Shown: piece by piece, positions 7,163-10,726 of the stretch
How positions within the stretch are numbered: position 1 is the stretch's first letter
Layout: the number at the start of each line of letters is the position of its first letter
Notes under the pieces: model-generated
The model's input: only the letters and a program-made list of their open reading frames with translations
The model's database searches: none
What the model was told of the DNA's origin: nothing
Program-made: the position numbers and the translations under genes
Origin: an uncultured Pelagibacteraceae bacterium
GTDB lineage: Bacteria > Pseudomonadota > Alphaproteobacteria > Pelagibacterales > Pelagibacteraceae
Assembly (NCBI GenBank): GCA_902578115.1
Contig: CACHBR010000006.1
Span: forward strand, 1-51,561
Reading direction: 5' to 3'
Length of the DNA: 51,561 bases

Positions 7163-7369
7163 ATGAGTCTAAAAGGAAAAGTAAAATGGTTCAATGGAAC
7201 TAAAGGTTACGGTTTTATTGAAAGAGAAGATAAGGAAAAGGACGTTTTCGTTCATTCTTCAGCAGTAAGAGCAGCTGGTTTAAAACATTTAAACGAAGGT
7301 GATGAGCTTACTTTTGATGTAGAGAACGGAGAAAAAGGACCTGCCGCGGTAAATCTACAGAAATCTTAA
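7163..7369 (+). CDS. Cold-shock domain protein (CspA family)
   Basis: A 68-residue single cold-shock domain that binds single-stranded RNA and DNA. It carries both nucleic-acid-binding motifs, RNP1 as KGYGFIE and RNP2 as DVFVHSSAV, and begins [16 protein letters not shown]. It has an AAGGAA ribosome-binding site 6-7 bases before the ATG, one of the few visible here. It stands alone, flanked by noncoding DNA on both sides, with a candidate promoter upstream and an 11-base-pair hairpin 25 bases downstream. Confidence 0.95.
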
Positions 7370-7394: not shown

Positions 7395-7432
7395 ATTGGG
7401 ACAAAGACTAAGATTTATGTTTTTGTCCCAAT
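7395..7432 (+). other. Perfect 11-base-pair hairpin downstream of the cold-shock gene
   Basis: ATTGGGACAAA (7395-7405) is the exact reverse complement of 7422-7432, separated by a 16-base loop. It follows the cspA stop by 25 bases and would form in the mRNA tail. No U tract follows on the plus strand, so it is not a textbook intrinsic terminator; it may protect the 3' end or end a processed transcript. Between this hairpin and the His-rich leader at 7480 I see only possible promoter sequence. Confidence 0.6.
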
Positions 7433-7479
7433 AATCAGGGGTTGAATTTAATTTTGAATTTGTTAAAACACCAATATTA

Positions 7480-7554
7480 ATGAAAAGTCAAAACATCATT
7501 GCTAAAATACACTCACACTCTCACAGAGTGCATGCTAGGCTATTGCTTAGCTAA
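7480..7554 (+). CDS. Putative histidine leader peptide (24 residues)
   Basis: A 24-codon ORF (ATG 7480, TAA 7552-7554) ends 55 bases before tRNA-His. Residues 11-18 read HSHSHRVH, so four of eight residues are His (codons at 7510, 7516, 7522 and 7531). The next genes are tRNA-His, histidyl-tRNA synthetase, HisZ and HisG, exactly the set expected under histidine control. Two hairpins overlap the ORF. The layout resembles his leader peptides of enterobacteria, where ribosome stalling at His codons senses charged tRNA-His. No Shine-Dalgarno sequence is visible and no U-tract terminator follows, so the mechanism is unknown and the peptide is a prediction. Confidence 0.6.
   Translation: MKSQNIIAKIHSHSHRVHARLLLS
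7516..7551 (+). promoter_or_regulatory. Tandem hairpins within the His leader
   Basis: Hairpin A pairs CACTC (7516-7520) with GAGTG (7526-7530). A second copy of CACTC at 7510-7514 could pair with the same GAGTG, giving two exclusive forms. Hairpin B pairs GCTAGGC (7534-7540) with GCTTAGC (7545-7551) around a TATT loop, with one G-U pair. The His codons lie in the strands of hairpin A, so a stalled ribosome would block A and leave B free. No terminator U tract follows B. Confidence 0.45.
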
Positions 7555-7609
7555 ATCTCAACATATTTAAAATACAAATTTATAAATAATTAATATAAAA
7601 AGGAGTTAT

Positions 7610-7686
7610 GCAGCAGTAGCTCAGTTGGTTAGAGCACTAGTTTGTGGAACTAGGGGTCGGTGGTTCGAATCCACCCTGCTGTACCA
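7610..7686 (+). tRNA. tRNA-His (GTG anticodon)
   Basis: A complete cloverleaf: acceptor GCAGCAG with CTGCTGT (first pair G-U), D arm GCTCAG...GAGC, anticodon stem CTAGT/ACTAG with loop TTGTGGA (anticodon GTG), T arm GGTGG-TTCGAAT-CCACC, and encoded CCA. The discriminator at 7683 is A and the base before G1 is T. It therefore lacks the G-1:C73 pair that marks tRNA-His in most bacteria. That loss is a known alphaproteobacterial trait accompanied by a divergent HisRS. The synthetase gene starts 4 bases after the CCA. A possible own -10 box (TATAAA, 7594-7599) lies just upstream. Confidence 0.96.
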
Positions 7687-7690
7687 AAAA

Positions 7691-9025
7691 ATGGTAAAAG
7701 ATAAAAAAACAACACCTTCTAGGGAATTACCTTTAGGTTTTGTAGATAGACAAGAAAAAGAATTATTAATCCGTGATTTTGTAATTTCTAATATTAAAGA
7801 AGTTATGATCAAGTACGGTTTTCAATATCTCGAAACACCAAGTTTCGAGTATTCGGATAGTATTGGCAAATTTTTACCAGATAAGGAAAGACCAGACTCC
7901 GGAGTATTTTCTTTTAAAGATGAGAAAAAGTGGATGTCCCTTCGTTATGATCTCACTGCTCCTCTAGCAAGATATGTTGCAAAAAATTATCTAGAAATAC
8001 CAAAACCATTCAAACGTTACCAATTAGGCGCTGTTTGGAGAAATGAGAAACCTGGACCAGGAAGATTTAGAGAATTTTTACAATTTGATGCTGACTATGT
8101 GGGAACAAAAAATCTCCAGGCAGACGCAGAGCTTTGTGTTTTAATTTCTGAGATATTAGAAAAATGTGGTTTAGATAAAAAAGATTATACTGTAAAAATT
8201 TCATCTAGAAAATTAACAGATAAATTATTCCAAAATTTGAAAATTACATCTAAAGATCAAATCTCAACCACGCTGCGAGCCCTTGATAAAATTGACAGAC
8301 TTGGTTGGAATGAGGCAAAAAAACTTCTTGGAGAGGGTCGAAAAGATAAATCAGGAGATTATACAAAGGGAGCAAACCTTAGTAATGACCAAATAGAAAC
8401 AATCGAAACTGCCTTAAAAGATAAAATTCCTGATAGTGAAGATATCTTAGAGATCATAAAAATATTTGAGGCTTACAATTTTAAAAATTACAAATTTGAT
8501 CCATCGGTTATAAGGGGACTAGAATATTATACAGGACCAATTTTTGAGGTTAATTTAAATTTTCAAGTAAAAAATTTAAAAGGACAGACTATACAATTTG
8601 GATCAATCGGTGGCGGAGGGAGGTATGATAATCTTGTTAGTAACTTTGGAAATTTAGATTGTCCTGCAACTGGGATTTCAATTGGTTTAGATAGACTTGT
8701 ATTTGCCTTGATGCAGAAAAAAGATTTTAAAATAAAGTCCACACGACCTGTTATTATTTGTATTTTTGATAAGGATAAAATCAAACAATATGTAGATATA
8801 CTAAATAAACTCAGAGCCTCAAATATTAGTTCGGAAATTTATCCAGGCGAGGGCAAGTTAAAAAAGCAAATGGAGTATGCAAACAAGTTAGGATCCCCAG
8901 CAGTTATTTTGTACGGTGACGATGAAATAAAATCAGGTAAAGCGACTTTAAAAAATCTAGAAAGCGGAAATGAGAGTTCAGTTAAAATTGAGGAACTGGT
9001 AAATGAAATTAAAAAATTACTCTGA
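7691..9025 (+). CDS. hisS: Histidine-tRNA ligase
   Basis: Charges tRNA-His. I place the start at ATG 7691 (444 residues): a longer frame open from 7625 would translate the tRNA gene itself. Class II features include VIRGLEYYTGPIFEV (histidine site), GGGGRYDNLV and the motif-3 stretch SIGLDRLVFAL, followed by a C-terminal anticodon-binding domain. Only CAAAA separates the tRNA CCA from the start, so there is no room for a Shine-Dalgarno sequence and the mRNA must be generated by tRNA 3' processing or read as a joint transcript. It overlaps hisZ by 23 bases. Confidence 0.95.
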   Translation: MVKDKKTTPSRELPLGFVDRQEKELLIRDFVISNIKEVMIKYGFQYLETPSFEYSDSIGKFLPDKERPDSGVFSFKDEKKWMSLRYDLTAPLARYVAKNYLEIPKPFKRYQLGAVWRNEKPGPGRFREFLQFDADYVGTKNLQADAELCVLISEILEKCGLDKKDYTVKISSRKLTDKLFQNLKITSKDQISTTLRALDKIDRLGWNEAKKLLGEGRKDKSGDYTKGANLSNDQIETIETALKDKIPDSEDILEIIKIFEAYNFKNYKFDPSVIRGLEYYTGPIFEVNLNFQVKNLKGQTIQFGSIGGGGRYDNLVSNFGNLDCPATGISIGLDRLVFALMQKKDFKIKSTRPVIICIFDKDKIKQYVDILNKLRASNISSEIYPGEGKLKKQMEYANKLGSPAVILYGDDEIKSGKATLKNLESGNESSVKIEELVNEIKKLL

Positions 9026-10052
9026 AAATATAATAAAAGTATTTAAGAAAGATGGATTTGTTTTATCAGAACCAGATGTGCTTTTAGATTCAGATTATAT
9101 TATCGAAAGATCTGGCGAGAATTTTAGGAAGATAATGCTTACTTTCGAAGATGATACTGGAAAAAGCATGTGTTTAAGACCAGATTTGACAGTTGCTTCG
9201 TGTATTAAATACTTAAAAGATAACTCCAAAGCAAATTCAAAGATATATTATTCCGGTCAAGCTTATAGAAGATCGAAAAGTTTAAAGAAAGTTGTTAATT
9301 ATCAATTAGGTTTAGAAATTTTTGGTTCTAAAAATAAATCTTTGGATGATTTAAAAGTTTTAAAAACAATAACTAATTCAATCAATAAAATAAAAATTAA
9401 AAATATATCAATTAAAGTTGGAGATGTAAGTTTATTCAAGCAATTAATCGATTCTTTAAAAATACCGGAAAGATGGAGAATGAGATTAAAAAGACACTTT
9501 TGGAGGCCAAAATATTTTGAAGATTTACTTAAAAGGCTTGAAACAAATTCTGACGTCGATCCTGCTACAGTTGAATTAGATAAGAAAAAGTTTTTTGAAA
9601 TGAAGAATATTGATCAGAACAAAGAAGTTGCAAGCAGAAAAGTTTCAGAAATCATATCCAGGTTTGATAGAAAAATTAAAGATCCAAGATCATTCAAGGA
9701 AAATAAAAAAACAGTAAAAATTATAAAAGATTTTTTAAAAATAAATTGTCCATTAGATAAATTAGAAAAAACATTAAATAATTTTATTAACAATAATAAA
9801 TTAAGTAAGAGTGTTTTTAATGATATATCAAGTTTGAAAAATTTATCTAGATTAAATTCTAAAATTATCTTTTCCACTAATTTTGGTAGAGATATCGAAT
9901 ACTATTCTGGAGTAGTATTTGAAATATATAATTCATCAAAAAAAGAAATAGCTAGAGGTGGTAGGTATGATGGTTTATTGAAGAGTCTCGGAGCTGATAA
10001 AAATATTTCAGCAGTAGGTGCTGCAATTAATTTAAATAATTTAAAAACATGA
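9003..10052 (+). CDS. hisZ: ATP phosphoribosyltransferase regulatory subunit HisZ
   Basis: A HisRS-like paralogue that lacks synthetase activity and forms the regulatory subunit of the first histidine biosynthesis enzyme. The 349-residue protein retains the class II fold signatures CLRPDLTVA, DIEYYSGVVFEIY and RGGRYDGLL. It lacks the HisRS C-terminal anticodon-binding domain. Its start lies inside the end of hisS (23-base overlap) and its stop overlaps the hisG start as ATGA. HisZ is needed only with the short HisG, which is the next gene. Confidence 0.9.
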   Translation: MKLKNYSENIIKVFKKDGFVLSEPDVLLDSDYIIERSGENFRKIMLTFEDDTGKSMCLRPDLTVASCIKYLKDNSKANSKIYYSGQAYRRSKSLKKVVNYQLGLEIFGSKNKSLDDLKVLKTITNSINKIKIKNISIKVGDVSLFKQLIDSLKIPERWRMRLKRHFWRPKYFEDLLKRLETNSDVDPATVELDKKKFFEMKNIDQNKEVASRKVSEIISRFDRKIKDPRSFKENKKTVKIIKDFLKINCPLDKLEKTLNNFINNNKLSKSVFNDISSLKNLSRLNSKIIFSTNFGRDIEYYSGVVFEIYNSSKKEIARGGRYDGLLKSLGADKNISAVGAAINLNNLKT

Positions 10053-10726
10053 AAAATTTAATAACTATAGGATTACCAAGCAAGGGGAGATTAAGAGAGG
10101 GAGCAATCCAATTTTTCGAAAAAAATAATTTTAAACTTACTTCAAATGGCGGAGATAGAAATTATTTTGCAAAATTTGAAAATTATCCAAACATAAAAAT
10201 TATATATTTACACGCTAAGGAGATTATTCAAAGAATCAGTGATGATACCCTTGATATAGGAATTTCAGGTTTAGATCTTTTGAACGAATCGGCTGCGAAC
10301 CTTAAACAAAAAATTGAAGTTAAGAAAAAATTAGATTTTGGTTCAGCTAATGTTGTGGTTGCTATTCCCAATGATTGGATCGATGTTCAAACTGTTGCTG
10401 ATTTAGAGGAAGTATCCTTTGATTTTAGAGATAAAAAAAATACTAGATTGAGAGTTGCAACAAAGTACCCAAATTTGACAAATAATTTTTTAGTTTCGAA
10501 AGGTGTTACACAGTACAAATTGGTTACTAGCCTTGGAGCAACAGAAACTTATCCCTTTATCGGTTCATCAGAAATAATTACAGATATAACTTCTACAGGA
10601 AAAACGTTGAAAGATAATAATCTCAGAATTTTAAAAGACGGCTTAATTTTAAAATCACAGGCTTGTTTATTTTACTCAAAAAAAAAGGCTGCCAAATTGC
10701 AGCCTTTTTTAAATTCCTTAAAGTGA
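10049..10726 (+). CDS. hisG: ATP phosphoribosyltransferase, short form
   Basis: Catalytic subunit for the first step of histidine synthesis (ATP + PRPP). At 225 residues it is the short HisG that lacks the C-terminal regulatory domain and works with HisZ, encoded directly upstream. Visible family features are GLPSKGRLREG near the N-terminus, DIGISGLDLL, and LGATETYPFIGSSEIITDITSTG in the PRPP region. The last codons carry a GC-rich inverted repeat flanked by A and T runs, a terminator built into the coding sequence. It ends 6 bases from the convergent groEL. Confidence 0.95.
   Translation: MKNLITIGLPSKGRLREGAIQFFEKNNFKLTSNGGDRNYFAKFENYPNIKIIYLHAKEIIQRISDDTLDIGISGLDLLNESAANLKQKIEVKKKLDFGSANVVVAIPNDWIDVQTVADLEEVSFDFRDKKNTRLRVATKYPNLTNNFLVSKGVTQYKLVTSLGATETYPFIGSSEIITDITSTGKTLKDNNLRILKDGLILKSQACLFYSKKKAAKLQPFLNSLK
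10681..10710. terminator. Bidirectional intrinsic terminator inside the hisG 3' end
   Basis: GGCTGC (10687-10692) and GCAGCC (10699-10704) enclose a 6-base loop. An A run lies on the left (10678-10686) and a T run on the right (10705-10710), so it has a U tract on both strands. It can terminate hisG from the left and groEL from the right. The hairpin encodes part of the hisG C-terminus, ending 16 bases before the hisG stop. Confidence 0.85.

Follow-up and report, generated by a model that had tools for sequence, protein, structure and literature searches.

The window, by which we mean the whole 51,561-nt stretch of DNA that was analysed, comes from a genome of the Pelagibacteraceae (SAR11) whose closest named relatives are single-cell genomes of the same family. 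Within it, a short histidine-rich ORF follows the cold-shock gene cspA and lies upstream of tRNA-His, hisS, hisZ and hisG, with a promoter-like element before its ATG; the start site and the co-transcription of these genes are predictions (Table 1). The first-pass annotation had described a 24-codon ORF with four His in eight residues (11-18), ending 55 bases before tRNA-His and followed by genes for HisRS, HisZ and HisG. This description was borne out, with His at residues 11, 13, 15 and 18, tRNA-His at 7610-7686, products of hisS and hisG that match TIGR00442 and TIGR00070 above cut-off, and HisZ models as the best NCBIfam matches for 9003-10052, at scores below the curated cut-offs. The tRNA-His gene is the sole copy detected in this 82%-complete genome. 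Searches of the window with Rfam at gathering thresholds returned tRNA only, with no match to His_leader or to the T-box.

Table 1. Coordinates of genes, predicted signals and RNA hairpins around the histidine leader
Feature	Position	Strand	Remarks
cspA, cold-shock gene	7163-7369		Upstream of the leader
cspA 3'-end hairpin, ATTGGGACAAA...TTTGTCCCAAT	7395-7432	+	No U-tract; between cspA and the leader; read from the sequence
Predicted promoter P1	7442-7468	+	TTGAAT (7442-7447) and TTAAAA (7463-7468), 15 nt apart; consensus only
Histidine leader ORF, MKSQNIIAKIHSHSHRVHARLLLS	7480-7554	+	24 codons; no Shine-Dalgarno; 55 nt to tRNA-His
His codon 1 (CAC)	7510-7512	+	Residue 11; not kept in all relatives
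His codon 2 (CAC)	7516-7518	+	Residue 13
His codon 3 (CAC)	7522-7524	+	Residue 15; in the loop of hairpin 1
Last His codon (CAT)	7531-7533	+	Residue 18; directly adjoins hairpin 2
Hairpin 1, CACTCT-CAC-AGAGTG	7516-7530	+	Covers His codons; some clades only
Hairpin 2, GCTAGGC-TATT-GCTTAGC	7534-7551	+	Proposed attenuator hairpin; ends at the stop codon
-10-like TAATAT, possible second promoter P2 of tRNA-His	7591-7596	+	No clear -35; overlapping TATAAA at 7594-7599
tRNA-His (GTG)	7610-7686	+	ARAGORN, Rfam
hisS, histidyl-tRNA synthetase	7691-9025	+	TIGR00442 above cut-off
hisZ, ATP phosphoribosyltransferase regulatory subunit	9003-10052	+	HisZ models best, below curated cut-offs
hisG, ATP phosphoribosyltransferase	10049-10726	+	TIGR00070 above cut-off

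The tRNA and synthetase genes are packed closely. The ATG of hisS stands 4 nt after the CCA end of tRNA-His (gap 7687-7690), a space into which a Shine-Dalgarno sequence would not fit, and the same gap measures 3-6 nt in 87 of 89 distinct loci. This spacing suggests that translation of hisS probably depends on 3' processing of the tRNA, which may yield a near-leaderless hisS mRNA. At one locus (L026, G004:C2) the leader and tRNA-His are retained while HisS is 55% identical to that of the window, compared with 88-98% in most of the genus; hisS may have been replaced there without loss of the conserved control region in front of it.

Four His within eight residues occurred in 1 of the 397 short ATG ORFs of the window and 0.15 times per window in shuffled sequence, so that the cluster alone is only suggestive against chance; conservation decides the matter. 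We gathered the regions upstream of tRNA-His and hisS within the genus, at 80 named loci and in 40 additional members of the family, and after exclusion of two loci with no readable tRNA-His upstream and removal of duplicates, 118 distinct regions remained. All 118 of these Pelagibacteraceae loci, which span at least 11 genera, have an ORF that begins with ATG (the start was set at an internal ATG in a few), contains no fewer than two His codons and ends 42-89 nt from tRNA-His. Examples from relatives are MLKRKYIVISHKHSHRVHARLLLS, MIENLKIINILNAKHHFAHARLLLS, MIKNNKFLAINHRHHFHAGCMLAI, MIKKYISTHRHHPHAEHTLSY, MKNIVLNHTHHHTHAKHGLGN and MLKKALFHIIPHHGF. A sister family of the same order carries an 11-codon leader at 16 of 16 hisS loci examined (for example MITLLHHHYHI and MFIIKHHHLHI); this leader lies upstream of the hisS match by about 125-150 nt, and tRNA-His is not adjacent to hisS. 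A His leader thus precedes hisS in both families, with or without the tRNA. Among the best-matching hisS loci examined from other alphaproteobacterial families, 0 of 28 had a convincing leader, and the linkage of tRNA-His to hisS differs in these loci.

The reading frame itself carries a signature. In the 12 codons that precede the hairpin, the 118 relatives average 3.4 CAY triplets in the ORF frame, compared with 0.8 and 0.2 in the remaining two, and the two His codons are used interchangeably (CAC 211, CAT 198). The sequences share descent, and these counts describe them without amounting to independent trials. Pairwise comparison of codons 2-11 within the genus gave differences of 0.28, 0.44 and 0.38 at codon positions 1, 2 and 3. 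Judged from these alignments, the N-terminal peptide is without visible selection, a pattern expected of a sensor ORF and not of a functional peptide. Free variation at the N-terminus together with retention of the His codons indicates that translation and the His codons matter, not the peptide.

A functional His-rich micropeptide (for example, one that binds metal) or a metal-sensing leader could also lie beside hisS by coincidence. A peptide with a cluster of three to five His might bind metal, and the leader RNA could, like rnTrpL (PMC7298713), be set free as a small mRNA. Against this idea, the number, spacing and neighbours of the His residues vary (HSHSHRVH, KHHFAH, HRHHFH, HHHYH, THRLCFH), the remaining peptide is unconserved, and the linkage to tRNA-His and hisS recurs every time, leaving it barely plausible to us. 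The leader very probably lets a ribosome sense histidine supply, a reading that is well supported, with histidine itself as the inferred signal.

Folding of the leader RNA agreed with the earlier description of hairpins that overlap the His codons. Both hairpins are real, and the leader has a minimum free energy of -16.7 kcal/mol, compared with -10.4 kcal/mol for shuffled sequences (z -2.4). The two are compatible with each other, separated by a 3-nt gap. Hairpin 1 shows compensatory changes (C-G/U-A and U-A/A-U) in clades A and D, with a covariation score reached by 0 of 500 shuffles; it is absent from clade C, g3, g5, g7, g9 and g12, and clade B has an unrelated counterpart. We rejected hairpin 1 as a universal element, as it is confined to some clades. 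The competition of two CACTC copies for one GAGTG that the first-pass annotation had proposed did not hold up, since the first copy (7510-7514) is missing from most relatives.

Hairpin 2 is the element that persists. In 117 of 118 loci a stem of 6-9 bp begins 1-4 nt from the first nucleotide of the last His codon that precedes it, and some leaders carry an extra His codon inside the hairpin loop. The exception, L092, is the single degenerate leader, in which the last His is replaced by Tyr, a stop comes early and the hairpin is broken; sequencing error or decay is possible. The arms of hairpin 2 are swapped wholesale by lineage (GCTAGGC/GCTTAGC, GCTGGC/GCTAGC, ATAGCC/GGCTAT, ACGGCT/AGCCGT). 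The amino acids encoded there vary, and the stop codon shifts from the loop to just behind the hairpin, while the pairing and its adjacency to the His codon are kept. Within one class of 19 distinct sequences there were 0 broken pairs in 133 cells; the changes in that class are one-sided swaps (A-U/G-U or U-A/U-G), so it provides no two-sided covariation by itself. In the genus, the hairpin 2 pattern occurs as one copy per genome and at the leader locus only. The sister family has a hairpin of 9-11 bp right behind the leader stop codon, with compensatory differences between sequences. At the loci of that family (L202-L217), a conserved ACNACCCC-like box follows the leader and hairpin and precedes hisS. 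What comparison across genomes shows is an ORF with its His codons and a hairpin, held at a constant position relative to one another.

We next consider how the leader RNA could begin. The predicted promoter P1 has counterparts in the relatives: at 102 of 118 loci a TTG -35-like element precedes the leader ATG by 34-38 nt, and in the sister family the distance is about 35-36 nt. With usual promoter geometry, this spacing places the predicted RNA 5' end 0-5 nt before the AUG, making the leader ORF nearly leaderless, and a Shine-Dalgarno match, even a weak one, was found for 6 of the 118 leaders only. A hairpin equivalent to that at the 3' end of cspA precedes the leader in many relatives, and in g5 and g12 relatives the gene upstream of the leader is tRNA-Phe, which indicates that the leader is its own transcription unit. 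The cspA hairpin has no U-tract in the genus, and at another locus (L143) there is a run of T behind the hairpin that precedes the leader; SAR11 terminators may be unusual.

The possible -10 box before the tRNA (TATAAA, 7594-7599), which the first-pass annotation had raised as a complication, falls in a conserved region. Nearly all relatives have TANNAT ahead of tRNA-His, at a distance of 13 or 15 nt, and similar boxes stand ahead of other tRNA genes of this genome. This conservation and likeness make basal transcription of tRNA-His and hisS from P2 likely, and the sequence suggests that P2 is a second, unregulated promoter. P2 could feed the genes independently of the leader, which counts against reading the leader as an attenuator. 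In its strong form, the argument would make the leader an upstream relic or minor transcript, with tRNA-His and hisS expressed constitutively from the box at 7591-7596, and the near-invariant TANNAT is what speaks for it. We consider this very improbable, because in a relic the ORF, the His codons, the placement of the hairpin against them and the promoter spacing would not all have been kept in both families, and because the leader promoter and the tRNA promoter are mutually compatible.

A further observation that counts against a histidine attenuator is that the regions upstream of hisB and hisD in this genome showed no His leader. On balance, comparison argues for the earlier reading of a histidine-sensing attenuator, with hairpin 2 as the key hairpin, its 5' arm following directly on the last upstream His codon. 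The ORF, clustered His codons with synonymous variation and paired hairpins, which the first-pass annotation had proposed to look for in SAR11 relatives, came back from the 118 family loci and the 16 sister-family loci alike.

Modelling of ribosome coverage supported such a role for hairpin 2. The mean probability of hairpin 2 was 0.98 in free RNA and fell to 0.00 when the A site held the last upstream His codon. For A-site His codons farther upstream it was 0.06 at 9 nt, 0.79 at 12 nt and 0.95-1.00 beyond that, up to 24 nt. A ribosome modelled at the stop codon also opened hairpin 2 (probability 0.00). Polarity is therefore not given by geometry alone, and the fed state requires release of the ribosome before the hairpin acts. 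The polarity that we assign is borrowed, by analogy, from known amino-acid leaders and physiology.

With that polarity, the leader would work as follows. Transcription would begin at or just before the leader ATG, and a ribosome would load on the 5' AUG with no Shine-Dalgarno sequence. Hairpin 2 would fold by default, and transcription would be stopped or aborted there. When charged tRNA-His is scarce, the ribosome would wait with the last His codon or codons in its A site, its leading edge covering the 5' arm of hairpin 2 and keeping the hairpin open, so that RNA polymerase could proceed into tRNA-His, hisS, hisZ and hisG. When His-tRNA is plentiful, the ribosome would reach the stop codon at the hairpin and leave, and hairpin 2 could reform. 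The probable second promoter before the tRNA would add a basal, unregulated level. We think it probable that a histidine-sensing leader governs these four genes through ribosome-mediated attenuation of this kind.

As the first-pass annotation had noted, there is no visible U-tract terminator, and in the genus of the window the 12 nt after hairpin 2 hold 3 T. The tails are U-richer in other clades (U-rich in clade C, g3 and L136) and seldom canonical. A scan of the window with an intrinsic-terminator consensus gave a single minus-strand site, not above shuffles, and a canonical terminator at the leader was rejected because the scan performed no better than shuffles. No conserved alternative (antiterminator) structure was found in the leader, and the part of an antiterminator could be taken by the ribosome itself.

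In several other clades (L081, L094, L123, L147) the leader RNA begins with bases, in many cases the AUG among them, that complement about 10 nt just after hairpin 2, as in AUGAUUAAA/UUUAAUCAU and AAAUAGUUU/AAACUAUUU. Such pairing could close the leader to further ribosomes. It is strong in several clades but missing from the genus of the window, and for this reason it was left out of the model.

The leader could also sense histidine with an output other than intrinsic termination, in which hairpin 2 and the stalled ribosome control a pause, RNA cleavage or the stability of the tRNA-His/hisS precursor. The tail of hairpin 2 in the genus, the probable tie between hisS translation and tRNA 3' processing, and the leader-start pairing of other clades, which is possible only once polymerase has moved on, all fit an output of this type. 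A short GC-rich hairpin placed strictly against the last His codon is attenuator-like geometry, however, and the U-rich tails of clade C, g3 and L136 also point toward termination; we regard the pausing or processing output as unlikely.

The leader can be read as working like the his leader attenuator, and the likenesses to the enterobacterial element (hisL; Rfam His_leader) are a short leader, clustered His codons, hairpins over those codons and a place upstream of histidine genes. The SAR11 leader differs in having no Rfam match and no U-tract terminator or separate antiterminator that we could find, in preceding tRNA-His and the synthetase, in a hairpin that lies inside the end of the ORF, and in being predicted to be leaderless. 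Since there is no Rfam match, no U-tract and no antiterminator found, it should not be filed under the described his-attenuator families. In E. coli, the pyrBI-type leader also has its attenuating hairpin within the leader ORF, where a ribosome on the hairpin blocks folding, as proposed here for SAR11; unlike the SAR11 leader, pyrBI senses UTP via polymerase pausing and not an amino acid.

Within the alphaproteobacteria, trpL/rnTrpL of Sinorhizobium meliloti is a leaderless leader ORF of 14 aa whose RNA starts at the ATG and which acts through a classical terminator/antiterminator switch (PMC7298713). The SAR11 leader resembles it as an alphaproteobacterial leader ORF with a (predicted) RNA start at the ATG, and differs in using His in place of Trp and in that classical switch. 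His leader peptides have been described in bacilli, where they precede hisZ and hisS paralogues (PMC2965389), and in the B. cereus group and other Firmicutes, where they precede his operons (PMC9413887). These His-codon leaders likewise stand ahead of synthetase-related or his genes; they belong to another phylum and were recognised by terminators/antiterminators, and the passages that describe them mention no tRNA gene in the unit. A text search of the open-access literature found no report of this leader in SAR11 or Pelagibacter, and the main text of a published search for structured RNAs in Pelagibacter contains no mention of histidine or hisS.

Beyond attenuation as such, we tentatively propose a narrower design, which we hold to be possible though somewhat doubtful. 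It would be a minimal attenuator with neither antiterminator nor U-tract, in which the ribosome stalled on a leaderless ORF directly masks the hairpin. The device would be family-wide, with a variant in the sister family and with sequences that turn over, and it would set the tRNA, the synthetase and the first pathway enzyme jointly. If true, SAR11 would have to use a non-canonical step of termination, pausing or processing.

SAR11 are the most abundant marine bacteria and are regarded as very poor in regulators. The locus described here points to a leader that is probably translated and amino-acid-sensing, is conserved throughout the order and stands ahead of the genes for tRNA-His, histidyl-tRNA synthetase and the first enzyme of the pathway. 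Its design, with a predicted leaderless ORF, the last His codon at the hairpin and no canonical terminator, allows direct tests of the minimal size of a ribosome-mediated attenuator and of the way in which transcription stops in SAR11.
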